A stretch of 22,074 nt of DNA from a virus (IMGVR_UViG_3300031216_000074:1-22074); one strand, 5' to 3'; counted from the stretch's first letter, positions 304 through 20,878 are shown. A program made the numbers and translations. The notes: generated by a model from the letters alone, not told the origin.

Positions 304-1854
304 TTAGGCGGTGGGCTGACTTGTGGCTCCGTTTGCGGCGAAGGCGGTTAATGCATCTGCGACAAGTGTTTCTACTTTGCCGGACTTCCATTCTGAATAA
401 AGGGTGCGGATGGATTGCTCTAATTCTTCAGGGCTTTCGCTGTTGAGCACGAGCTGCCGGACTGGTGCAAGTGAACTGCGGAAGGCCTGCGTGATGTCTG
501 CGGTGGCGTCTAAAACTATCAATTCGTCGGGATCTGCGCTGAGAGCTCGGAGTTGTTTGAGTGGTGCCTCTGCTTTGGGTGGTGTCGCAATGTCGCGCTC
601 GACGGTGAAGCCTAGGCGCTTGTTGAGGGTTACTAGCCCGTCGTCTGTTATGATGAGGCCGGAGTCTTTGAGACTCTTCAAAAGGGTGCCGACTGTTGAT
701 AGCTCGTCGGATGAATCGGATCCCCAGGTTGCGCTGGGGCAGCCGCCTTTTACTCCGTTGATTTGGAGATACTGTTTGAAGAGTTGGTCGCGTAGTGTGG
801 CTGCCAAGAGAACAGAGTCGAATTGGCGGATGTCTTGGCGGACGTTTTCTTGTCCTTTTCCGACAGAGGAACCTAGTCCAGTAGATTGAGCTTCGGCGGA
901 AAGGGTCTGCCCGATGATGAGTTTTGACTTCTCGCGTTGGCAGATGGTGTGGAACTTTTCGTAAGCATCGCCTGCGTCGCCTTTGGCGGCTTCGACTAAT
1001 TCGACTTCGGTTTCTTTGCTGACGACTAGACCTCCGAGTTTTTTTGCTGCGGAGAATGCCTGCATTAAAACGGAGCGACTGGCGTCGTCGTTCTGGTCGT
1101 ATTTTCCTACGGGGAATGGGCTGCCGTATTTATCGAGGAAGTTTGCCCACCAGGTTCGGTCTTGGGTGGAGAGGAAACCCCAGAAAAGGATGGAGCGCAT
1201 GGGGCCGCCCCAGTTGTCGGGGAGAGAGAGTATGTGATTGCGGTGGATGATGTAGCGCATCGGATCCGGCGCGTGGAAGGTTTGGAGCCGGCGGCCGGTG
1301 TCGGGATCGGTGTCGCGGATCATTAGCTTGCCGGTGGTGAAGTCTTGCAGGTCGTGTTCGACGGGCACGAGCTCGGCGATTTCGTAGTTGAGGCTGGGTT
1401 CGCGACTGGGGCGGTAAACTTTTTCGAGGATTGAGACTGGCCAGAGGGTGGAATCTAGGAGGTGGGCGAAGATTCGCTCTTTGCCATTGAGATGGGAGAG
1501 CATTTCCTCGATTGCTTTGGCGGCGGTTTTGTCGTCGGCCGAGTTTTCGTCTTTCTCCTGTATGCTGAGAGGATCTCCTAGTAGTGCGATTTTTCGTTTA
1601 GCGAACTCGGCCTGCAGGTGGTTATCGTTGGCCATGAAGTCGCGATAGATGGCGTAGAGGTCTTCGATGTGGCCGTCTTCGGCGGCTTTAATGGCGTTCC
1701 AGATGCTATCGACATCCATGTATTCGAGGCCGGATTCGGCACGGTCTCCGATGGGGCGTATCACGGTGGTGAGTGCTTTGAGGGGGAGCTTGCCCTTAAT
1801 GACTAGGGATAAGCGCTCTTTGAGGGTGAGGTTGGGAGATTCTACTTTGTTCAT
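304..1854 (-). CDS. Portal protein, Mu gp29 / DUF935 family
   Basis: 516 residues from the ATG at 1854, the usual length of the DUF935 portal family. The portal forms the dodecameric ring at the capsid vertex through which DNA is packaged and ejected. The diagnostic C-terminal stretch is present: 'LIIGQTLSAEAQSTGLGSS..GKGQENVRQDIRQFDSVLLAATLRDQLFKQYLQING', split here by dots, which in the family precedes the last helical domain. The N-terminal 'IEDLYAIYRDFMANDNHLQAEFAKRK' region also fits. The start was chosen because it overlaps the upstream terminase stop as ATGA (1851-1854); a longer open frame reaching 2097 lies entirely in the terminase nuclease gene and is discarded. It is the last gene of the leftward block, ending about 130 bp from the prophage end. 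Confidence 0.9.
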   Translation of the reverse strand: MNKVESPNLTLKERLSLVIKGKLPLKALTTVIRPIGDRAESGLEYMDVDSIWNAIKAAEDGHIEDLYAIYRDFMANDNHLQAEFAKRKIALLGDPLSIQEKDENSADDKTAAKAIEEMLSHLNGKERIFAHLLDSTLWPVSILEKVYRPSREPSLNYEIAELVPVEHDLQDFTTGKLMIRDTDPDTGRRLQTFHAPDPMRYIIHRNHILSLPDNWGGPMRSILFWGFLSTQDRTWWANFLDKYGSPFPVGKYDQNDDASRSVLMQAFSAAKKLGGLVVSKETEVELVEAAKGDAGDAYEKFHTICQREKSKLIIGQTLSAEAQSTGLGSSVGKGQENVRQDIRQFDSVLLAATLRDQLFKQYLQINGVKGGCPSATWGSDSSDELSTVGTLLKSLKDSGLIITDDGLVTLNKRLGFTVERDIATPPKAEAPLKQLRALSADPDELIVLDATADITQAFRSSLAPVRQLVLNSESPEELEQSIRTLYSEWKSGKVETLVADALTAFAANGATSQPTA

Positions 1855-2552
1855 GACCAGCGGGATTGAATGTTTCTTAATAGTGCAAAAGGGTTTTTGA
1901 TGCCGGGGCGTTGGCTTTTGGCTTTGTGGCCTACTCCGGCTGCCATGGCTTGGGCGGGGCCGGAGAGTTTGGATCCGCAGCCGTGCATGGAGTTTTTGAG
2001 GGCGTCGAAGTAATCGGCGTGATTGCCTTGTTCGTCGACGTCGGCGGCGAAGGTGCCGCGATCGGTGTAGACCTGGCGTATCATCTTCTTGCACCATTCT
2101 TCGTTTGGCATCTCGATGTAGCCGTCGATGAAGGCGTTGACGAGTAGGTTGCCGAGGTAGGTTTTCCAGTTCATGTCCTCATTTTGGTAGGTGAGCGTTT
2201 CTCCGGAGACGATTAGCTGTGTGGTGACTCTGCCTGCGAACTTCTTTTTGACGTTGGTGGCGAAGTAGCGTTCGTTGCTGGCATCGATACAGAGCTTGCG
2301 GACTTTTAGGCCGTGTGGAAGGTCGAGGGCTTCGTCGATTAAGTCTTCAGGGATCGCGGGATTGTCGGATTTGAAGGCTACGGCCGCGACGTTGCGGTAG
2401 GTCATACCGATCATCTGTGTGAGGCAGAGGCAGGATGGATTGCTCTTTTTTTTGGTGGTTGTGGCGACGTCGTAGCCTAGCCCGATCTTTGGGTATCGGG
2501 GATCTAGGAGGCCTTTCCAGTTTTTAGGCCAGCAATCTGTGACAGGGATCAT
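1851..2552 (-). CDS. Large terminase, C-terminal nuclease half (split gene)
   Basis: 233 residues forming the RNase H-fold nuclease domain of a TerL. This domain cuts concatemeric or integrated DNA at the start and end of packaging. Candidate metal-binding acidic residues are D28 (IGLGYDVATT), D90 (KLCIDASN) and D180 (GNHADYFDALKNS), the last in the usual 'H.D...AL' context. No Walker motifs are present; these are in the separate upstream ORF at 2923-3846. The two parts sum to 540 residues, close to an intact Mu-type TerL of about 550. The start codon is an ATG preceded by a tandem octamer leader and no Shine-Dalgarno. The stop overlaps the portal start (ATGA). Whether the half-protein assembles with the ATPase half is unknown. 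Confidence 0.8.
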   Translation of the reverse strand: MIPVTDCWPKNWKGLLDPRYPKIGLGYDVATTTKKKSNPSCLCLTQMIGMTYRNVAAVAFKSDNPAIPEDLIDEALDLPHGLKVRKLCIDASNERYFATNVKKKFAGRVTTQLIVSGETLTYQNEDMNWKTYLGNLLVNAFIDGYIEMPNEEWCKKMIRQVYTDRGTFAADVDEQGNHADYFDALKNSMHGCGSKLSGPAQAMAAGVGHKAKSQRPGIKNPFALLRNIQSRWS

Positions 2553-2586
2553 TTGTGTGGAAATATGAAATTTTGAAAATCTGAAA
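2553..2586 (-). repeat. Octamer leader array before TerL nuclease start
   Basis: Read on the minus strand, four consecutive 8-mers (tttcagat, tttcaaaa, tttcatat, ttccacac) run to 2 nt before the ATG at 2552. The same TTTCAGnn unit, also in sense orientation, precedes the gpG-like gene (17547-17587) and lies upstream of the gene starting at 5293 (5371-5410). No Shine-Dalgarno is present. Confidence 0.75.
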
Positions 2587-2592
2587 TAGTGC

Positions 2593-2622
2593 CCCGCTCT
2601 GCTTGCGCAGAGCGGGATTTTT
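2593..2622. terminator. Strong GC hairpin between the two TerL halves
   Basis: A perfect 10-bp stem (cccgctctgc / gcagagcggg, 2593-2616) with a ttgc loop. On the plus strand it is followed by atttttat, a good T-tract. On the minus strand, the direction of the local genes, the following bases are gcactatttc, a poor T-tract. It could act as a terminator or as a processing/stability hairpin between gp49-like gene and nuclease gene. Confidence 0.6.
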
Positions 2623-2650
2623 ATCGGTTAGATGGGGCGAATTTCGTCAC

Positions 2651-2926
2651 CTATGTAGCTAGCTTAGGCTCGCCCCTATGAATTGTTTTTTGCAGATGAT
2701 AGCCCTCCATCTTCCACAGCTGAGAACGAATTTTTTCTAGGCAGATTTCTTTGCCTTGATCTTCCGAGTAATTGGCCTGGTCGACCGCCCCAGAGGATTC
2801 TGTGAGGACGAAGCCGCTTTCGAGTCGAACGGCAACGAGTGTGACTTTGTCGAAAATTGTTTCTGTGTGGATCTCGGCTATGTCTATGAGTGCTTCGATG
2901 TCTGCGGGGTGGATTCGTGTCTTCAT
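2651..2926 (-). CDS. N4 gp49 / Sf6 gp66 family protein, inserted in the terminase
   Basis: 91 residues. The core 'VTLVAVRLESGFVLTESSGAVD.ANYSED.GKEICLEKIRSQLWKMEGY' matches my memory of the small N4 gp49/Sf6 gp66 family (Phage_gp49_66), whose biochemical role is not settled. The start is set at the ATG at 2926 because it forms an ATGA overlap with the terminase ATPase stop (2923-2926) and because homology begins a few residues later; an in-frame extension to 3229 lies in the ATPase gene and looks like out-of-frame noise. The gene sits exactly between the ATPase and nuclease ORFs of the large terminase and is followed by the strong hairpin at 2593-2616, so gene plus hairpin look like a compact insertion. 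It has no Shine-Dalgarno and is probably translated by coupling. Confidence 0.75.
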   Translation of the reverse strand: MKTRIHPADIEALIDIAEIHTETIFDKVTLVAVRLESGFVLTESSGAVDQANYSEDQGKEICLEKIRSQLWKMEGYHLQKTIHRGEPKLAT

Positions 2927-3846
2927 GCGATTTTTATTTCGTCTGTGATGTAGTTGCCCATGCAGGTATCTTTGCCTTTTTCCATGGCGTTTTGGAGGGC
3001 CATTAGTGGAACGGCGGAGACGCCGCCGGTGAGGAATTTTACGCCGTGGTTGCGGTCCCAGCTGCGTTTGTCGAAATAGGTTGCGCGGTGTTCTTCGGGG
3101 GTGATTACTTTGCCTGTCTCGGGGTGATAGTAAACGGCGCCTCCGGCTGCTCCGTCCCAGGCGTCGAGTCTGTGCACCATGATTCCGGATGGTGAACGAT
3201 ACCAGTTGCCGCGGGGGTTGGTCTCCCACTCTTGGGCGGGGGGTAGGAATAGCTCGAAGCTGTCGTGGCTGTCATCGGGGGGTGCTGTGGTGGCCATGAT
3301 CATTTCAAACTCGGGATTGGAGTCGATGAATGGCATGACGGCTTCGAAGACGTCTTTGAGTGAGGCTATACGGGCGACTTCGTCTAGGTAGACATCGCCT
3401 GTCCAGCCGACTGCGGTGTCGGGATTGGGTGCTACGACTTGGGTGCGGGAGTAGTCGACGTTGTTATGGTAGATGCGCGTTTCGAGCTTTTGATGCTCGA
3501 AGAGATCGGCGATGGCATCGACATCGAGGAGGTTGCCGTTGTCGTCGTCGGCGGTGGTGGTGAGTTGTTGCTGTCCTTGCGCGAGGAGCATCTCGCGATA
3601 TTTGGACATGACGATGCGCCAGACTTCGGACTCTTTGCGGATCCATTCGGAGCCTAGGAGGATGGATGCGCTGACGAAGATGACGGCGTGATTTTTGCGT
3701 TGCATCATGCGGCGCATGGCGCGTGAACCGAGGGTGAAGCTTTTGCCGTATTGGCGGCGCCATAGCATGAAGAAGATGCGGAGTTCGCACCAGAAGGCTT
3801 CTTCTTGGCCGGGCTTGAATTTGATGAATGGCTGTTGCTGAGGCAT
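2923..3846 (-). CDS. Large terminase, N-terminal ATPase half (split gene)
   Basis: 307 residues. This is the packaging motor ATPase domain: Walker A-like RRQYGKS at residues 30-36 (the 'RQ.GKS' form usual in TerL), Walker B DVYLDE at 151-156 and a coupling motif MATTAPP at 184-190. The protein stops after 'MGNYITDEIKIA', just where the linker to the nuclease domain should begin; the nuclease continues as a separate ORF at 1851-2552 after an intervening gene. The ATG at 3846 is chosen because the N-terminus matches the expected start of the domain. It lies 27 nt downstream of the small terminase stop, and that gap is itself a dispersed-repeat-like phrase with a small GCTT/AAGC hairpin. No Shine-Dalgarno is visible. 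Confidence 0.85.
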   Translation of the reverse strand: MPQQQPFIKFKPGQEEAFWCELRIFFMLWRRQYGKSFTLGSRAMRRMMQRKNHAVIFVSASILLGSEWIRKESEVWRIVMSKYREMLLAQGQQQLTTTADDDNGNLLDVDAIADLFEHQKLETRIYHNNVDYSRTQVVAPNPDTAVGWTGDVYLDEVARIASLKDVFEAVMPFIDSNPEFEMIMATTAPPDDSHDSFELFLPPAQEWETNPRGNWYRSPSGIMVHRLDAWDGAAGGAVYYHPETGKVITPEEHRATYFDKRSWDRNHGVKFLTGGVSAVPLMALQNAMEKGKDTCMGNYITDEIKIA

Positions 3847-3873
3847 ATGCGGGACGCTTGCTGAAGCTGCGCG

Positions 3874-4542
3874 CTACGGGTTTTTTTCGGGTGGTTTACC
3901 GAAGAAAAGTTGGACTAGGTCGCCTACTTTTTTGTCTTCGGTGCCGGTGCCGGCTGCGATGTCTTTGGCTTTCTTGTCTTCGTAGAATTTTAGGAATTGC
4001 TCGGCTGTGGTGCGGTGGAATTTTTCGATTTCTAGGTCCAGGCGTTGTTCGGTTTGCTTGAGGCGCTCTTCGGCGTGCTTGAGCTTTGCGCTACTGACGC
4101 TGCCTTTTTGCAGGGAGGTCAGGGCGCTGACTAGATCGATCATGACTTTGGGGTCGTTTTCGAGGAGTGTCTTTTGGGCTTCGATGTCGAGGGACTCGAA
4201 GATCTCTAGGAGCTGGCCGCCGACGATGGAGCTGCTGGCGGCGAAGAGATCGCGGCCGTTGTCGGCTAGCTCTAGGCTGTATTCTGTGAGCTGCTTGACT
4301 TCGGCTACGCGCTCTTTGCGGCGGAGGTATTTTTGATAGCCTTCTTTGGAGTTTTTCCAGCTGGAGATGTTCTGCGCGGAGACGGGCTCTTCGCGGTAGT
4401 GCTGGTCGAGGACTTCGAGCACGGAGGGTTGGGCATGGAGCCAGGCGATGATCTCGTGCGCTCGGTCGCCGGCGTGGATGCGCTTGTTGACCTCGGTGCG
4501 GATATCGGCGGGCATGGAGCCTATTTTACCTGGATTAGCCAT
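3874..4542 (-). CDS. Small terminase subunit, DUF3486 / Mu gp27-like
   Basis: 222 residues, typical for the DUF3486 family. Small terminase binds packaging-initiation DNA and loads the large subunit. An N-terminal helical DNA-binding region is visible: 'GKIGSMPADIRTEVNKRI..G....EIIAWLHAQPSVLEVL', a DUF3486-like opening with the 'MPADIR..VN' signature, then 'SAQNISSWKNSKEGYQKYL' as a second helix pair. Residues 130-205 are predicted long helices. The position directly upstream of the large terminase supports the call. The ATG at 4542 is 6 nt downstream of a five-copy heptamer array and has no Shine-Dalgarno. Confidence 0.8.
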   Translation of the reverse strand: MANPGKIGSMPADIRTEVNKRIHAGDRAHEIIAWLHAQPSVLEVLDQHYREEPVSAQNISSWKNSKEGYQKYLRRKERVAEVKQLTEYSLELADNGRDLFAASSSIVGGQLLEIFESLDIEAQKTLLENDPKVMIDLVSALTSLQKGSVSSAKLKHAEERLKQTEQRLDLEIEKFHRTTAEQFLKFYEDKKAKDIAAGTGTEDKKVGDLVQLFFGKPPEKNP

Positions 4543-4548
4543 CTTGGG

Positions 4549-4583
4549 GAATTAAGAATTAGGAATTGAGAATTACGAATTGA
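4549..4583 (-). repeat. Heptamer leader array before small terminase
   Basis: Five exact-period 7-nt units (plus-strand view gaattaa, gaattag, gaattga, gaattac, gaattga). On the coding strand they read as ATTC-rich units ending 6 nt before the ATG at 4542. The same unit in sense orientation precedes gpT (19766-19793) and gp36 (20844-20878). Confidence 0.85.
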
Positions 4584-13902: not shown

Positions 13903-14118
13903 ATGATCACCGACACCACACTCCCCCATTGCATCGAGCTCGTTGGCGGCCCTGCCGACGGCGCCGCAGTCGAGGCCCCCGAGGGCTGGCCCAATGTGCC
14001 TCATGTTACAGTGCTCTGGCGCGGGGCCACGCTCTACTACGCACCCGAGCCCGACAGCCAACACCTCGCCATCTTCGACCGCCAAGAAGGCAGCATTACC
14101 GTGCCGGCCGCCGACTGA
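13903..14118 (+). CDS. Small GGPADG-type phage protein
   Basis: 71 residues. The sequence 'CIELVGGPADGAAVEAPEGWPNV' and the ending 'YYAPEPDSQHLAIFD' follow the layout of many small phage and prophage proteins that start with 'lvGGP.DG' and end in a YxP-type strand. No function is known to me. Its stop codon (TGA at 14116-14118) is itself the first part of the heptamer array that leads into the next gene. Confidence 0.6.
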   Translation: MITDTTLPHCIELVGGPADGAAVEAPEGWPNVPHVTVLWRGATLYYAPEPDSQHLAIFDRQEGSITVPAAD

Positions 14119-14139
14119 ACATCGAACACTGAACATTGA
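14117..14139 (+). repeat. Heptamer array joining a stop to the next start
   Basis: Period-7 units gaacatc, gaacact, gaacatt, then gaATGac: the array starts inside the stop codon of the preceding ORF and the next start codon (14140) is in the fourth unit. No Shine-Dalgarno. Confidence 0.8.
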
Positions 14140-14580
14140 ATGACTGAAAAAGTAGAGATCCCCACCACGCTTGACACGCCCGCCTTTGGCGAGGCCTGGG
14201 GCGAGTTTCTCGCGCACCGCTGCGAGATACGTAAGCGGCTCACCCCCCGTGCCCAGCGTATGCAACTGCGTAAGCTCGAGCGCTGGGGGGCGCCCCGCGC
14301 CATCGCCGCGATCGAGCACAGCGTGGGCAATGGCTATGTCGGCCTCTTCGAGGACCCGGCCCAGCTCAAAACTGGTAAAGCAGCTGGCCGGGGCAACGCC
14401 CCTATGGGCCTCTGGGAGATCAACGAACGCGAGAAGGCGCTGCGCAACGAGCTCGACAGCCTCGGCTCCAACTTCTTCGGCCCGGATGCCGAGCGCGTCA
14501 ACGCCGAGCGCTCAGAGCAGCGCCGCAAAATCTCCGCCAAACTCCGCGAGCTCAAGACCGCTAAACTCGGACTCGCCTAA
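14140..14580 (+). CDS. Replication-initiator C-terminal-like helical protein
   Basis: 146 residues. 'FGEAWGEFLAHRCEIRKRLTPRAQRMQLRKLERWGAPRAIAAIEHSVGNGYVGLF' matches the common C-terminal pattern of phage replication initiators and DnaD-like loaders ('W..y...k..lt..a....l.kL......A...ieqSi.nGw.gly'). No DNA-binding N-domain or helicase motif is present in this ORF, so it may be a stand-alone loader or a recombination accessory. The C-terminal half (85-146) is charged coiled coil. Role inferred from the pattern. Confidence 0.55.
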   Translation: MTEKVEIPTTLDTPAFGEAWGEFLAHRCEIRKRLTPRAQRMQLRKLERWGAPRAIAAIEHSVGNGYVGLFEDPAQLKTGKAAGRGNAPMGLWEINEREKALRNELDSLGSNFFGPDAERVNAERSEQRRKISAKLRELKTAKLGLA

Positions 14581-14596
14581 CTTTAACATCAACTCT

Positions 14597-14619
14597 CTCA
14601 CGCCTCACGCCTCAAAAAA
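14597..14619 (+). repeat. Heptamer leader before 14620 gene
   Basis: Units ctcacgc, ctcacgc, ctcaaaa with exact period 7, ending 2 nt before the ATG at 14620. No Shine-Dalgarno. Confidence 0.8.
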
Positions 14620-15836: not shown

Positions 15837-17372
15837 ATGCTAGATCTACTCACCAAAGCCGTGCCGAACACAGAAGCGGCTGCCTTCATCCGCAACAAGC
15901 CGATCGTGTCGCGCCAAGTGTATGACCGTATGCTGCCCGAGGTGCAGGCGCTCTCGTTTACCATCTCCGGAGTGGAGCGCTACGATGTGCTGCAGCGTGT
16001 GCGCGATATGACTGCAGAGCTACCGCTGGGCGGCGATTGGAACAAAATCAAGCGGGGCATCGCCGCTGAGCTCTCGCCCTGGCTGGGCGATGAGAAGGCC
16101 GCTAAGGCGCGGGCTGAGCTAATACTCCGGCACCATGGCTTGCAGAGCTACCGGGTGAGCCAGTGGGAGCAAGTGCAGCGGAATACCGATGTGTATCCCT
16201 ATCTTAAATACATCGCGACGCGCGATGGTAAGACCCGCAGCTCGCACCAAGCGCTGCATGGAGTGATCCTGCCCGTCGACGATCCCTTCTGGCAGGGGCA
16301 CATGCCGCCGTGGGAGTGGGGCTGCCGCTGCCAGGTGATACAAGTCAGCCAGGCGCAGTATGACGCGCAGCTGGCGAAAGATAAAGACCTGCCACTCGAC
16401 GAGCGGAAGGTGCTCGATGAGAAGGCGCGGGCGCGGCTCAATGATGAGGGCCGCTTCGTGCACGCACGCCGCGATAGTCAAGACCGCCTCCAGCCGCCGC
16501 AAAACTTCGACGTGCGCACCCCCCAACAAAAGGGCAATCGCGGCCCCGGCACTGTCGAGGATCTACGCATACCCATGGAGGTGCTGCGCGATCGGTATGA
16601 TGACGACATCTGGCAAGAGTTCGAGGGATGGGCTAAAAAGACAGATCTACCGCTGATGCAAAAGAGCGTATGGAGCTGGCTCGAAGATGGCGTCGATGCG
16701 ACGACAAGTGCGGCGACTAGCGCGGCCGCTGCCATAGGCACTGCCGGCAATGTGCCCGTGGTGCTGGCCACCGGGCAAGCACCCGTCTCGCAAGCGATCA
16801 CCGTGGCCACCCTCAAGCCCGCGATCCGCGAGTCGGCGCAAGAGGCGATCGATGCGATCGACTCAGTGCATGGCGATGGCGTGCTGCCAGCATCGGTCGT
16901 CAAGACCGGGCGCACTCGCCATCTAGGCACCTACCATCCCGTGACCCACGAGATTAAGATCAAAGAGATCGGGGCATGGCGTGAGTTGACGATGGTGCAT
17001 GAGACCGGGCACTTCCTGCATAATGCTGCACTAGGTGTGCCACCGATGGGCATACGCTCGATCCCCCAGATCATGGAGCGCTCGATGGTCGCGATTCGCG
17101 GGAGTGCTGCCTTTGATGGGCTGGAGCTGCAGCTGGCGAATAGTCTGGGCGTGCAGAGCCGCAAGCATTTGCGCTATCTACTCGAAGACTATGAGCTCTG
17201 GGCGCGTGCCTATGCGCAATACATCGCCGAGCGCAGCGGCTCGGCAAAACTGCTCGACCAGGTGCGCCGCGCCCGCCTACACCATGCCGAGCGCCAATGG
17301 TCGCGCGAAGACTTCGAACCGATCGGCATTGCGATCGATGAGATGTTTATCAAACTAGGATGGAGGAAATAA
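15837..17372 (+). CDS. MuF-like minor head protein fused to a C-terminal zincin domain
   Basis: 511 residues. Residues 40-170 are a phage Mu F-like head-morphogenesis domain: 'YRVSQWEQVQRNTDVYPYLKYIATRDGKTRSSHQALHGVILPVDDPFWQGHMPPWEWGCRCQV' has the family's 'R..H..l.G.....DP.W....PP.gW.CRC' signature. After a charged region and an Ala/Thr linker (about 285-320) comes a separate domain with HETGH at residues 388-392 (LTMVHETGHFLHNAAL) and a downstream 'EDYELWARAYAQYI' (450-463), the pattern of a metallopeptidase with Glu as third zinc ligand. MuF proteins with C-terminal enzyme or toxin domains are known; such domains may be injected with the DNA. A leader without SD precedes the ATG. Confidence 0.85.
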   Translation: MLDLLTKAVPNTEAAAFIRNKPIVSRQVYDRMLPEVQALSFTISGVERYDVLQRVRDMTAELPLGGDWNKIKRGIAAELSPWLGDEKAAKARAELILRHHGLQSYRVSQWEQVQRNTDVYPYLKYIATRDGKTRSSHQALHGVILPVDDPFWQGHMPPWEWGCRCQVIQVSQAQYDAQLAKDKDLPLDERKVLDEKARARLNDEGRFVHARRDSQDRLQPPQNFDVRTPQQKGNRGPGTVEDLRIPMEVLRDRYDDDIWQEFEGWAKKTDLPLMQKSVWSWLEDGVDATTSAATSAAAAIGTAGNVPVVLATGQAPVSQAITVATLKPAIRESAQEAIDAIDSVHGDGVLPASVVKTGRTRHLGTYHPVTHEIKIKEIGAWRELTMVHETGHFLHNAALGVPPMGIRSIPQIMERSMVAIRGSAAFDGLELQLANSLGVQSRKHLRYLLEDYELWARAYAQYIAERSGSAKLLDQVRRARLHHAERQWSREDFEPIGIAIDEMFIKLGWRK

Positions 17373-17374
17373 TT

Positions 17375-17542
17375 ATGAACCTAATCGAAGCACTCGAAGA
17401 AACCAGCCGCCTAAAGCTAGACGAAGCCGCCACAGCCAGCTATCTAGTCGAGCAGCTCGGCATGGAGCCCGCCGAGGCTGAAGACACCGCACACACCGCC
17501 CACGGCGGCAGTGATGTGGTGTATGAGGAGGAGGCAAAATAA
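17375..17542 (+). CDS. Small acidic protein after MuF
   Basis: 55 residues from the ATG at 17375, chosen over an in-frame ATG at 17360 because GGAGGAAATAATT precedes it and the longer form would overlap MuF. MNLIEALEETSRLKLDEAAT then ASYLVEQLGMEPAEAEDTAH then acidic tail. Helical and very acidic. It may be an immunity-like or accessory partner of the MuF-zincin, in the manner of small acidic proteins next to toxins, but that is a guess from position only. Confidence 0.55.
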   Translation: MNLIEALEETSRLKLDEAATASYLVEQLGMEPAEAEDTAHTAHGGSDVVYEEEAK

Positions 17543-17546
17543 TTTA

Positions 17547-17587
17547 TTTCAGCCTTTCCCCTTTTTCAGATTTTCAGCTTTTCATAA
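17547..17587 (+). repeat. Octamer leader array before gpG-like gene
   Basis: Units tttcagcc, tttcccct, (extra t) tttcagat, tttcagct, tttcataa, approximately period 8, ending 2 nt before the ATG at 17590. Same unit family and orientation as at 2553-2586 and 5371-5410. Confidence 0.75.
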
Positions 17588-17589
17588 AC

Positions 17590-18015
17590 ATGCCCATCAA
17601 AACTACATTCGACTCACTCACGCCGGGCCTCAAAAAGCTCGCCGCCTTCGGGCAGTCGCCCAAGCCCGTGCTCGAAGTGATGGGCGTCGAGCTCAAGAAC
17701 GTCACCATCGAGTCATTCTCCGATCCCTCCATCCGCCCCGCGCCCTGGGCAGATAAGAAAGACGGCGGCCCCTCTAACCTGACAGACTCAACGACCCTCA
17801 GTAAATCCTTCCGGGAGACGGCCACCAACAAAAAGGCCACCGTCTCCACCGATCGGGTTTACGCCGCCGTGCACCAGTTCGGCAGTAAAGACGGACGCAT
17901 CCCCGCAAGGCCGTTCTTCCCGTTCGTCAATGATACGATGGTGCCCGCCGCGCATGCCCGGATCGAAGCGATCGGGCAGCTCAAGCTGGATAACTTACTG
18001 CGCAAGATCCGCTAG
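17590..18015 (+). CDS. Phage virion morphogenesis protein, gpG-like
   Basis: 141 residues. 'STTLSKSFRETATNKKATVSTDRVYAAVHQFGSKDGRIPARPFFPFVNDTM' contains the family's 'Y...hq.G....ipaRpflg..' segment, which is typical of Mu gpG / P2 gpS-like morphogenesis (tail-completion) proteins. In Mu this gene follows gene 30 (MuF), as it does here. The sequence is complete and has no odd feature besides the octamer leader. No Shine-Dalgarno is present. Confidence 0.85.
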   Translation: MPIKTTFDSLTPGLKKLAAFGQSPKPVLEVMGVELKNVTIESFSDPSIRPAPWADKKDGGPSNLTDSTTLSKSFRETATNKKATVSTDRVYAAVHQFGSKDGRIPARPFFPFVNDTMVPAAHARIEAIGQLKLDNLLRKIR

Positions 18016-18109
18016 TCAGGAGTGGGGATACCTTAGATCGCTCCCCGCTCTCTACTCCCCGCTGTGGCACCTAGCGCCACTCCGGGCTTTGCTTATTATC
18101 GCCGCCTCT

Positions 18110-18137
18110 GCCGCCTTCGCAGTTAGGCGGCTTTTTC
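18110..18137 (+). terminator. Rho-independent terminator after gpG
   Basis: GCCGCC (18110-18115), 10-nt loop, GGCGGC (18126-18131), then TTTTT (18132-18136). It lies about 95 nt after the gpG stop and about 65 nt before the protease start, so the protease-capsid block may have its own promoter or rely on read-through. Confidence 0.8.
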
Positions 18138-18201
18138 ATGTCTGCACGTATCGGGTAGTGTGTGGTTTTTCGCCAAACCAACCAACCGCACACACCGCCC
18201 C

Positions 18202-19239
18202 ATGATACGAACTTTCCGCTCCGGCTCCCTCGGGATCGCCAAAGACAAGCCCCTCCCTTCGCGCCTCGTCGTGATGGGCTGGGGTGAGAGCGAGATCAAT
18301 GGCGGCGAAACACTGCGCGTCAATGCCACCACACTGGCGCAACTGCCGGGCAATCAAAAGAAGATCAACTTCGACCGCGTCGCCCTGGACTTTAACCATA
18401 ACTCTGTCGAAGGCTCCAAGTATTACAAGGGCGAGCCGGTCGAAGTCGCTGGCTACGCCACGCTCTCGGTGATCGAGGGCGAGGGGCTCATCTACGAAGA
18501 CATCGACTACACCCTCTCTGGCGAAGAGCGCCTGCGCAATGGCGACTACATCGACCTCTCTCCCGCAGTGAAAACCAACGCTCAAGGTGAAGTCATCTTT
18601 CTGCACTCCGTAGCCGTCTGCCGCCAAGGCCAAGTGCGCGGCCTCTCGATACTCGCGGCCGATCCTTTCGAAACCTCCCACCACGATAATAATAATAAAC
18701 ACCACACCATGGACCCAAAGAAACTCCTCCTCACACTCCTCTGCCTGAGTGCAGATGCCTCCGACCAGGAAATCACCGACGCCGCTGAAGCTGCCGGTAA
18801 GATGCCTGAGCAATTCGCCACACTCTCCGGCACCGTCGAGAGCCAAGCCGAAGAGATCAAGACGCTCTCCGCCTCGCTGACCACGCTCCAAGAAAAGAGC
18901 GACACCGTGCAGCTCGACGAAGTCGCTGCCGAGCGCATCGAGACGCTCTCCGCCTCGGTCGAAAGCCTGATCGCCCGCGACGAAGCCCGCGAGCGCACCA
19001 CCATCAAAGCCCAGGCACTCGCCTCCGGTAAGATCGTGCCACTCGCCGCCGATAAGCTCGGGCTCGAAGACTTCCGCACCCTCTGCTCAGAGCTGCCCGA
19101 AGATCAAGTGCCCATCGATCGCCGCACACCCGAGCACCTCAAAGTGCTCTCCTCGCAAAAGCCCGGCGATGCCGAGGCCGACACCATCTTCCGGCAGCTC
19201 AACGTCTCCGCCGACGACGTGAACAAGTATAACAACTAG
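18202..19239 (+). CDS. Head maturation protease / scaffold, Mu gpI-like
   Basis: 345 residues from the ATG at 18202; an upstream in-frame ATG (18160) would lie in the terminator downstream region and add a hydrophilic tail without resemblance to the family. The N-terminal half is the phage I-like protease ('FDRVALDFNHNSVEGSKYYKGEPVEVAGYA', 'DIDYTLSGEERLRNGDYIDLSPAVKTN'), with candidate His in FNHNS and Ser in DLSPAV. From about residue 168 comes a linker rich in His/Asn and then a mostly coiled-coil scaffold. In Mu, gpI and its in-frame C-terminal product gpZ act as protease and scaffold during head assembly. Confidence 0.85.
   Translation: MIRTFRSGSLGIAKDKPLPSRLVVMGWGESEINGGETLRVNATTLAQLPGNQKKINFDRVALDFNHNSVEGSKYYKGEPVEVAGYATLSVIEGEGLIYEDIDYTLSGEERLRNGDYIDLSPAVKTNAQGEVIFLHSVAVCRQGQVRGLSILAADPFETSHHDNNNKHHTMDPKKLLLTLLCLSADASDQEITDAAEAAGKMPEQFATLSGTVESQAEEIKTLSASLTTLQEKSDTVQLDEVAAERIETLSASVESLIARDEARERTTIKAQALASGKIVPLAADKLGLEDFRTLCSELPEDQVPIDRRTPEHLKVLSSQKPGDAEADTIFRQLNVSADDVNKYNN
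18709..19239 (+). CDS. Internal scaffold start, Mu gpZ-like
   Basis: An in-frame ATG at 18709 begins a 176-residue scaffold product (MDPKKLLLTLLCLSADASDQ..., coiled coil at about 45-120). It is preceded by the trinucleotide run ataataataataa and accacacc (about 18686-18708), a leader like those seen before other genes here, although it also encodes the HHDNNNKHHT linker of the longer protease. In Mu, Z is made from an internal start in gene I. This is a predicted second product, not a separate ORF. Confidence 0.6.
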   Translation: MDPKKLLLTLLCLSADASDQEITDAAEAAGKMPEQFATLSGTVESQAEEIKTLSASLTTLQEKSDTVQLDEVAAERIETLSASVESLIARDEARERTTIKAQALASGKIVPLAADKLGLEDFRTLCSELPEDQVPIDRRTPEHLKVLSSQKPGDAEADTIFRQLNVSADDVNKYNN

Positions 19240-19248
19240 GCGCTTCGC

Positions 19249-19279
19249 TCGAACTCCGAACCTCGAACTCCAGATAATT
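19249..19279 (+). repeat. Leader repeat before decoration-protein gene
   Basis: Iterated tcgaactccgaacc, tcgaactccagata phrase, then att, then the ATG at 19280. It begins 9 nt after the protease stop. No Shine-Dalgarno. Confidence 0.65.
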
Positions 19280-19744
19280 ATGATCACTGAACCCATCGAC
19301 ACACCCTCACGCAGCGGCTCTTCCGTTTCGCTGCCCGTAGCTGCGGCTACGGCACTTTTCGCCGGCGGCTTGATCGCCCTCAACGCCGCGGGCGACGCCG
19401 TCCCCGCTAGCGACACCGCTAGCCTCAAAGTCATCGGTCGCTGCGCCGCCGACGTTGATAACTCTGCCGGCGCTGCCGCAGACCTCGACGTAGTCGTCGC
19501 GCGAGGCGTCTACCGCTACGCTAACTCCGCTACAGATACCTTGACCAAGGCAGATGTAGGCACCGCCGCCATCGTCGAAGACGACGAGACAGTCGGCGAC
19601 GGCACCACACCCGCTCAGGGCATCGTAGCCGGCCTGATCGTCGCGATCGATGCCGACGGCGCCTGGATCGATACCAGCCGCGCCGCAGAGCTGCAGTCGC
19701 AAGCCGCCCTCGATGCCCGAGTCGTCGTGCTCGAGAACGTTTAA
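19280..19744 (+). CDS. Head decoration / capsid accessory protein
   Basis: 154 residues, Ala/Val/Asp-rich and predicted beta: 'SLPVAAATALFAGGLIALNAAGDAVPASDTASLKVIGRCAADVD', 'DLDVVVARGVYRYANSATDTLTKADVGTAAIVEDDETVGDG', 'GIVAGLIVAIDADGAWIDTSRAA'. This resembles capsid cement or DUF2190-type proteins that sit between protease and major head gene. It is placed exactly between gpI and gpT. Decoration proteins trimerise on the shell; this role is inferred from position and style. Confidence 0.7.
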   Translation: MITEPIDTPSRSGSSVSLPVAAATALFAGGLIALNAAGDAVPASDTASLKVIGRCAADVDNSAGAAADLDVVVARGVYRYANSATDTLTKADVGTAAIVEDDETVGDGTTPAQGIVAGLIVAIDADGAWIDTSRAAELQSQAALDARVVVLENV

Positions 19745-19765
19745 TCCTCCCTCCGCGTCTTCTCC

Positions 19766-19793
19766 ATTCCTAATTCCTAATTCCTAATTCTCA
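19766..19793 (+). repeat. Heptamer leader array before gpT
   Basis: Units attccta, attccta, attccta, attctca with exact period 7, ending 6 nt before the ATG at 19800. Same unit family as the arrays before the small terminase (opposite strand) and gp36. Confidence 0.9.
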
Positions 19794-19799
19794 AAAATT

Positions 19800-20708
19800 A
19801 TGCAAATCAACAAAGGCACACTCTCGAACCTCTTCCGTGGGTTCAAAACCGTCTTCTTCACCGCTTACCAAAGTAGTCAAGAAAACGTCCTGCTCGCGCT
19901 CGCTGAGGTCACTCAGTCCACTGCGGACGAGGAGGTCTACCACTGGCTCGGCGCCCTCCCTGGCATGAGCAAACTGATCGACGAGATCAAAATCCAGAAC
20001 GTCAAGGCCCACAACTACACCATCCCGAATGAGGAGTGGGAAGATTCGGTCGCCGTGAAACGCGCCGACATCGAACGCGACCGCTACGGCATCTACTCGC
20101 CGATGTTCCGCATCATGGGCGACATCGCTCGCCAGCACGATACCGAGCAACTCGCCGCACTCTGCATCGCCGGATTCACCGAGAACTGCTACACCGGTAA
20201 ACCCTTCTTCTCGCTCAATCATGAGCCGATCAAAGGCGGCACCAAGTTTAGCAACCTGACCGCGAAGAAGCTCAGCCAGGCAAACTTCCGCACCGGGCGT
20301 GAGAACATGCGCAGCCGCAAGAACGCTGCCGGCCGCATCATGGGGCTAGGCCGTGACCTCGTGCTCGTAGTCGGCCCGAAGAATGAGAGCCTCGCCCGCG
20401 AGATCCTCAAAGCCGAGCGCAGCGACAATGGTAAGACGAATGTCGATAAAGACACCGCCCGCATCGAGATCTCTGCCGAGCTAGGCGGAGTCAATGAAGA
20501 TGCCTGGTTCCTTTTCGACATGGGCCACCCGATGAAGCCGTTCATCCTGCAAAACGAGCTACCCATCGAGCTCAACTCCCTGACCGACGAGACATCCGAC
20601 CATGTCTTCAAGAAAAAGGAGTTCCTCTACCAAGCCTACAAGCGCTGTGGCTACGGCTTCGGCATGCCAGAAGTGGCTTACGGCTCCACCGGCGCAGCCG
20701 CTGCGTAA
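19800..20708 (+). CDS. Major head subunit, Mu gpT-like
   Basis: 302 residues, like Mu gpT (305). 'MQINKGTLSNLFRGFKTVFFTAYQ' is the typical gpT opening; 'HWLGALPGMSKLIDE' and 'SFLNH'-type region 'GKPFFSLNHEP' follow, then 'LVLVVGPKNESLAREILKAER' and 'WFLFDMGHPMKPFILQNELPIEL'. The protein forms the HK97-fold capsid. It is preceded by the protease/scaffold and decoration genes, as expected. The start is set by the N-terminus match; the leader has no Shine-Dalgarno but a heptamer array. Confidence 0.93.
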   Translation: MQINKGTLSNLFRGFKTVFFTAYQSSQENVLLALAEVTQSTADEEVYHWLGALPGMSKLIDEIKIQNVKAHNYTIPNEEWEDSVAVKRADIERDRYGIYSPMFRIMGDIARQHDTEQLAALCIAGFTENCYTGKPFFSLNHEPIKGGTKFSNLTAKKLSQANFRTGRENMRSRKNAAGRIMGLGRDLVLVVGPKNESLAREILKAERSDNGKTNVDKDTARIEISAELGGVNEDAWFLFDMGHPMKPFILQNELPIELNSLTDETSDHVFKKKEFLYQAYKRCGYGFGMPEVAYGSTGAAAA

Positions 20709-20717
20709 CCTTTCGGG

Positions 20718-20744
20718 AGCTCCGGCCACTCGGCCGGAGCTTCT
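20718..20744 (+). terminator. Hairpin terminator after gpT
   Basis: agctccggcc pairs perfectly with ggccggagct (10 bp, loop actc, 20718-20741), followed by tctt. It lies 9 nt after the major head stop. The T-tract is short, so partial termination or 3'-end protection of an abundant mRNA is likely. Confidence 0.75.
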
Positions 20745-20843: not shown

Positions 20844-20878
20844 ATTCTTAATTCCTAATTCTTAATTTTTAATTCTTC
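20844..20878 (+). repeat. Heptamer leader array before gp36
   Basis: Units attctta, attccta, attctta, attttta, attcttc with exact period 7, ending 4 nt before the ATG at 20883. Confidence 0.9.

Follow-up and report, generated by a model that had tools for sequence, protein, structure and literature searches.

The DNA examined here (the window, a 22,074-base virus record from a Mu-like phage, probably incomplete) presents its large terminase, TerL, in an unexpected form. Few phage enzymes are as highly conserved as TerL, which commonly serves as a marker for phages. In the window, its ATPase and nuclease domains lie in separate genes with a third gene between them. This arrangement raises the question of whether the terminase is broken, is made whole again at the RNA or protein level, or works as a two-gene enzyme, and of what part the intervening gene played in the split.

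Family searches with Pfam and PHROGs recognize a Mu portal, MuF, a protease, and a gpT capsid protein in the window. The terminase genes lie on the minus strand in the order probable TerS, ATPase, gp49/gp66-family gene, hairpin, nuclease, and portal (Table 1). The ATPase/gp49 and nuclease/portal junctions are ATGA overlaps, and a 98-nt gap containing the hairpin separates the gp49-family and nuclease genes. The ATPase/nuclease pair occupies the TerL slot between TerS and the portal, with TerS assigned by position and synteny only; this gene has no family match in Pfam/PHROGs-type searches, and its homologues adjoin TerL in relatives. Since the contig is incomplete, a further terminase gene could lie outside it.

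Table 1. Features of the window's terminase region
Feature	Position	Strand	Basis
Probable TerS	3874..4542	-	Position and conservation beside TerL in relatives
TerL ATPase half, free-standing gene, 307 aa	2923..3846	-	Motifs and fold match
Inserted gp49/gp66-family gene (PF13876), 91 aa	2651..2926	-	PF13876 match, E=7e-19
Perfect 10-bp hairpin between gp49-family and nuclease genes	2593..2616	-	Folding; T tail on + strand only
Degenerate period-8 AT-rich leader upstream of nuclease start	2561..2586	-	Repeat analysis
TerL nuclease half (RNase H-like), free-standing gene, 233 aa	1851..2552	-	Invariant residues and fold match
Mu-type portal	304..1854	-	Portal_Mu, E=2.8e-58

The overall layout is unusual for a Mu-like phage: TerS, TerL, and portal run leftward (304-4542, minus strand), and the MuF, protease, and capsid side runs rightward (15837-20708, plus strand). 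Transposase and MuB also read rightward, and early genes lie between the two blocks. The same opposed layout is found in Haloferula luteola (genome G001, contig C5, 66570-91992) and, within the part covered, in G041, so that it is not an assembly error.

Both halves retain the hallmarks of a terminase. The Walker A motif of the ATPase half is RRQYGKS and its Walker B motif is VYLDE; residues R31, Q32, K35, and S36 of the former and D155 and E156 of the latter are invariant among 20 relatives. The nuclease half has an acidic triad, D28, E94, and D180, that is invariant among 18 relatives. Asp91, in the motif IDASN, is replaced by Ala in two relatives, so the middle acid of the catalytic site is more plausibly E94. 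The predicted model of the ATPase half (pLDDT 75) matches the ATPase domains of P74-26 and T4 gp17 (E=1.8e-10), and that of the nuclease half (pLDDT 83) matches the nuclease domains of G20c, HCMV, and T4 (E=5.5e-6). The pair thus provides the ASCE ATPase domain and the RNase H-like triad of a TerL, but in separate ORFs with another gene between them rather than in one polypeptide. Alignments of both halves with one-piece relatives run over their full length, indicating that no sequence is missing at the cut. A reading made earlier from the sequence alone (the sequence-only reading) had described a Walker-motif half and a three-acid half that sum to normal TerL length and are cut at the interdomain linker, and the residues and alignments bear out each of these points. 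Pfam and PHROGs barely recognize either half, and annotation pipelines can therefore take such phages to lack a terminase. PDB sequence searches with the halves gave no matches, and an NCBIfam search gave chance matches only.

Many prophages are defective and the window contig is incomplete, so we considered whether the terminase is a pseudogene broken in two in a decaying prophage. The active-site residues, however, are invariant across 18 to 20 diverged relatives, and frames, overlaps, and Shine-Dalgarno motifs are kept in most relatives. Further, dN/dS is well below 1, at 0.05 to 0.26 for the ATPase and 0.08 to 0.49 for the nuclease over 13 pairs; these values are rough, as several pairs approach saturation at synonymous sites, but the close pair L054/L085 (dS 0.27-0.28) gives 0.08 and 0.15. 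Purifying selection acts on both halves. Decay, which the sequence-only reading had also discounted, is extremely improbable.

To see the split in relatives, as that reading had proposed, required an indirect route. Direct tblastn of both halves against phages and single-sequence peptide-pattern scans of viral and genome collections gave no matches, because this terminase family is remote from known phages. The family was opened with a hand-made degenerate pattern around NPDTAxGWxG, after which viral and genome contigs were searched with alignments and 388 Verrucomicrobiota genomes were surveyed. Three matches to the pattern (L010, L012, and L038) were rejected as unrelated proteins that merely contain a motif of this type, and several others as distant TerLs only. 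The final set comprises 62 loci including the window, or 46 non-redundant loci after collapsing ATPases at least 97% identical. TerL is split at the same point in 34 of the 46 and is one-piece in the other 12.

Close ATPase homologues are present in 12 of the 388 surveyed genomes, six split and six fused, and the nuclease adjoins the ATPase in all 12. The hosts that carry a name belong almost entirely to the Verrucomicrobiota (Haloferula luteola, Akkermansia muciniphila, Geminisphaera colitermitum, Rubritalea, Opitutaceae, and others); one further bin is labeled Kiritimatiellaeota. Some of the prophages among these loci may be defective. The split and the neighboring gene order recur in isolate genomes such as that of H. 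luteola, indicating that the split is not a metagenome assembly artefact.

The spacing between the halves varies widely. The ATPase stop and nuclease start overlap by exactly 4 nt (ATGA or GTGA) in 13 of the 34 split loci and are spaced at -8 to +34 nt in three more, giving 16 non-redundant split relatives without an insert. Another 17 split loci have a spacer of 163 to 2094 nt with same-strand genes, and one has an 80-nt spacer with no ORF of 35 aa. At the ATGA overlaps the nuclease reads in the -1 frame with respect to the ATPase, as would be needed if programmed -1 frameshifting joined the halves of insert-less relatives and the split were only apparent. Yet the slippery heptamer is absent from 14 of the 16 insert-less loci, the shared open stretch is at most 25 nt in seven of them, and frameshifting is impossible for loci with inserts, the window included. 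We give this explanation very little credence.

A one-piece TerL could also arise if the insert were removed from the RNA like an intron, as the sequence-only reading had suggested, or if the halves were joined as proteins by a split intein. Introns and endonuclease genes are known in or near phage terminase genes: the ICP1 terminase is interrupted and restored by RNA splicing (PMC10448857), and in Enterococcus phage iF6 a 95-aa terminase piece is cut off by VSR endonuclease genes, with the rest thought to be the enzyme (PMC10054541). As in these phages, foreign DNA interrupts a terminase gene in the window; unlike in them, the cut separates two complete domains and is found throughout the lineage, and the inserts are of various kinds, most of which are not nucleases. 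When group I/II intron structure was sought, neither the window nor the junction gave an Rfam match, even with E allowed up to 1. The window insert encodes no endonuclease and matches PF13876 only, inserts have ordinary coupled start and stop codons, and in insert-less relatives the stop codon is retained and the junction offers nothing to splice out. For an intein, there is no extra intein-like sequence at the inner ends, and the halves align fully with fused relatives. The suggestion of RNA-level removal thus found no support, and rejoining by either route is scarcely credible.

The gene between the halves is, as the sequence-only reading had it, a gp49/gp66-family member: its product matches PF13876 over positions 2-81 of the 82-position model with 68.6 bits, well above the Pfam gathering score of 27, and its ATG overlaps the ATPase stop as ATGA. 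That reading also proposed that this gene is a moron whose arrival broke an intact terminase gene and created a two-subunit enzyme. The insert does lie exactly at the domain boundary, and its family is spread over unrelated phages. Further, a gp49 homologue is present at none of the other fetched loci, where the junction holds other genes or nothing, so the gene is an addition that close relatives do not have at this position. However, the same split occurs without an insert in the 16 relatives described above, and other split relatives carry different inserts. One insert-less relative, L041, groups with the window in both the ATPase and nuclease trees. These observations indicate that fission came first and that the gp49-family gene is a later insert. 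The domain-boundary split proposed earlier is genuine and consistent with two subunits; that the moron caused it is very unlikely.

Morons of lambdoid phages are extra genes of widespread families that are absent from close relatives and inserted between late genes. The gp49-family insert resembles them in these respects, but it is ATGA-coupled to the ATPase gene. A search of the window found no match to a sigma-70-like promoter, and the nearby hairpin, with its T tail on the opposite strand, is probably not a proper terminator for the sense strand.

Similar overlaps are seen at nearly all insert loci. The first inserted ORF starts on an ATGA or GTGA overlapping the ATPase stop in 16 of the 17 insert loci, and directly after the stop in L068. 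These ORFs are mutually dissimilar except in L049 and L062 (62% identical). Pfam names four inserts, gp49/gp66 in the window, MT-A70 in L046, an N6/N4 DNA methylase in L050, and a C5 cytosine methylase in L052, so that the cargo includes three kinds of DNA methyltransferase. The remainder are mostly short ORFs without a convincing family, some of which may not be real genes. Close phages swap inserts whole: L066, L069, and L070 have ATPases 81-86% identical and three unrelated inserts, and L049 and L052, with ATPases 87% identical, carry a 72-aa ORF and a 414-aa methylase, respectively.

As a control, we counted gaps of at least 120 nt at neighboring junctions. Such gaps occur at 17 of 34 ATPase/nuclease junctions, 9 of 31 TerS/ATPase junctions, and 0 of 31 nuclease/portal junctions. 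The ATPase/nuclease junction is therefore a favored insertion slot but not a unique one; the idea that inserts are confined to the split junction was rejected, since the TerS/ATPase junction takes them too. Long inserts at the latter are found in L046 (1509 nt), L050 (587 nt), and L075 (2303 nt).

A Shine-Dalgarno core lies 5 to 20 nt upstream of the ATPase stop in 26 of the 34 split loci, whereas random in-gene windows gave 4.3 on average and never more than 10 in 200 draws; of 11 fused genes, only 2 have it at the matching place. This motif fits independent translation of the next gene, and a gene landing at the ATGA would be expressed at once. The window has no such motif near its ATPase stop; its nuclease gene is preceded by the period-8 leader instead.

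Most one-piece forms branch near the base of the ATPase tree. Two one-piece loci, L065 and L076, nevertheless fall inside the split group and look like re-fusions. Insert presence requires at least six changes on well-supported branches of this tree. The two halves disagree on where the Akkermansia group belongs, so that either one or two fissions are possible. The trees conflict further for L049, L050, L052, and L081, which the ATPase tree unites in a single group (100/100) and the nuclease tree does not; keeping this group, which was named from the ATPase tree, together in the nuclease tree is rejected (p-AU 0.0036). In addition, L049 and L062 share insert and nuclease (61-62%) while their ATPases are only 54% identical. 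Taken together, the conflict and this pattern indicate that the halves have been exchanged by recombination near the junction. Four TerL ATPase homologues are present in the one bacterial genome of Geminisphaera colitermitum TAV2 (G003), three in short frames (301-327 aa) and one in a 542-aa frame that is probably one-piece, so that co-resident prophages could exchange halves.

With high confidence, we interpret the TerL of the window's phage as a two-gene enzyme produced by an old fission whose junction became a slot for gene insertion. An ancestral one-piece TerL would have been cut at the linker between its domains, which left an overlapping stop and start (ATGA), accompanied in most descendants by a ribosome-binding motif within the final ATPase codons; the nuclease would thereby be made as a separate polypeptide by coupled re-initiation. 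The junction, by then like an ordinary gene boundary, received unrelated genes repeatedly in different phages. In the window this insert is the gp49-family gene, with the hairpin behind it; the ATGA now serves the insert, and the nuclease uses its own leader. The two separate proteins would act as one terminase, assembling at the portal, where the ATPase would pump DNA and the nuclease would make the initial and headful cuts. We also lean toward the broader proposal of a phage lineage with an obligate two-polypeptide TerL, a nuclease subunit swapped by recombination, and a reusable slot that usually has a built-in ribosome-binding site.

Mu-like TerLs already known from other hosts, such as those of Alteromonadaceae phage B23, Faecalibacterium phage FP_Mushu, and Klebsiella phage ST405-OXA48phi1.1, likewise combine an ATPase with an RNase H-like nuclease and are encoded between TerS and a Mu-type portal, but each is one polypeptide of 445-591 aa, whereas the window has two genes, with a stop at the linker and a gene between. 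In some actinobacteriophages, genes for the TerL ATPase and nuclease domains are annotated separately. Cluster AT Arthrobacter phages have two TerL-related genes (PMC5513430), as the window does, but belong to a different phage group from the Mu-like family. Another essential phage enzyme made from two genes after fission is a ribonucleotide reductase whose gene was split by a homing endonuclease (mentioned in PMC10448857); there the endonuclease was the cause, whereas here the insert-less splits suggest that fission came first. We found no direct description of a split or two-gene TerL in the open-access literature searched.

If the two-polypeptide TerL is indeed obligate, covalent linkage of motor and nuclease would be unnecessary for packaging. 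Models derived from structures with linked domains, T4 gp17 for instance, tend to treat the nuclease as tethered, and with this naturally split enzyme one can test directly whether DNA translocation and headful cutting depend on its attachment to the ATPase. The junction also illustrates a route by which fission of a gene can create a place where accessory genes land, DNA methyltransferases among them.

The sequence-only reading had also pointed to the hairpin and to an octamer leader ahead of the nuclease gene. The hairpin is perfect over 10 bp and folds well beyond chance (z=-5.1), but its role as a terminator of the gp49-family gene is doubtful, as the sense strand has no U tract. A second perfect 10-bp hairpin (20718-20741) lies 10 nt past the capsid gene stop and is followed by TTCTT, so such hairpins are not particular to the terminase junction. 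The leader is present before the nuclease ATG but is weak (period 8, 77% match, score 31), and similar leaders upstream of other genes indicate that it is not special to the nuclease. Degenerate period-7/8 tandem repeats, with units including ATTCCTA, ATTCTTA, TTTTCAGA, TGAACAT, and others, occur at 2561-2586, 4549-4583, 14116-14140, 14597-14614, 17563-17584, 19766-19790, and 20844-20877. They lie just upstream of several start codons, those of the capsid and nuclease genes among them, and are possibly leader or initiation signals.
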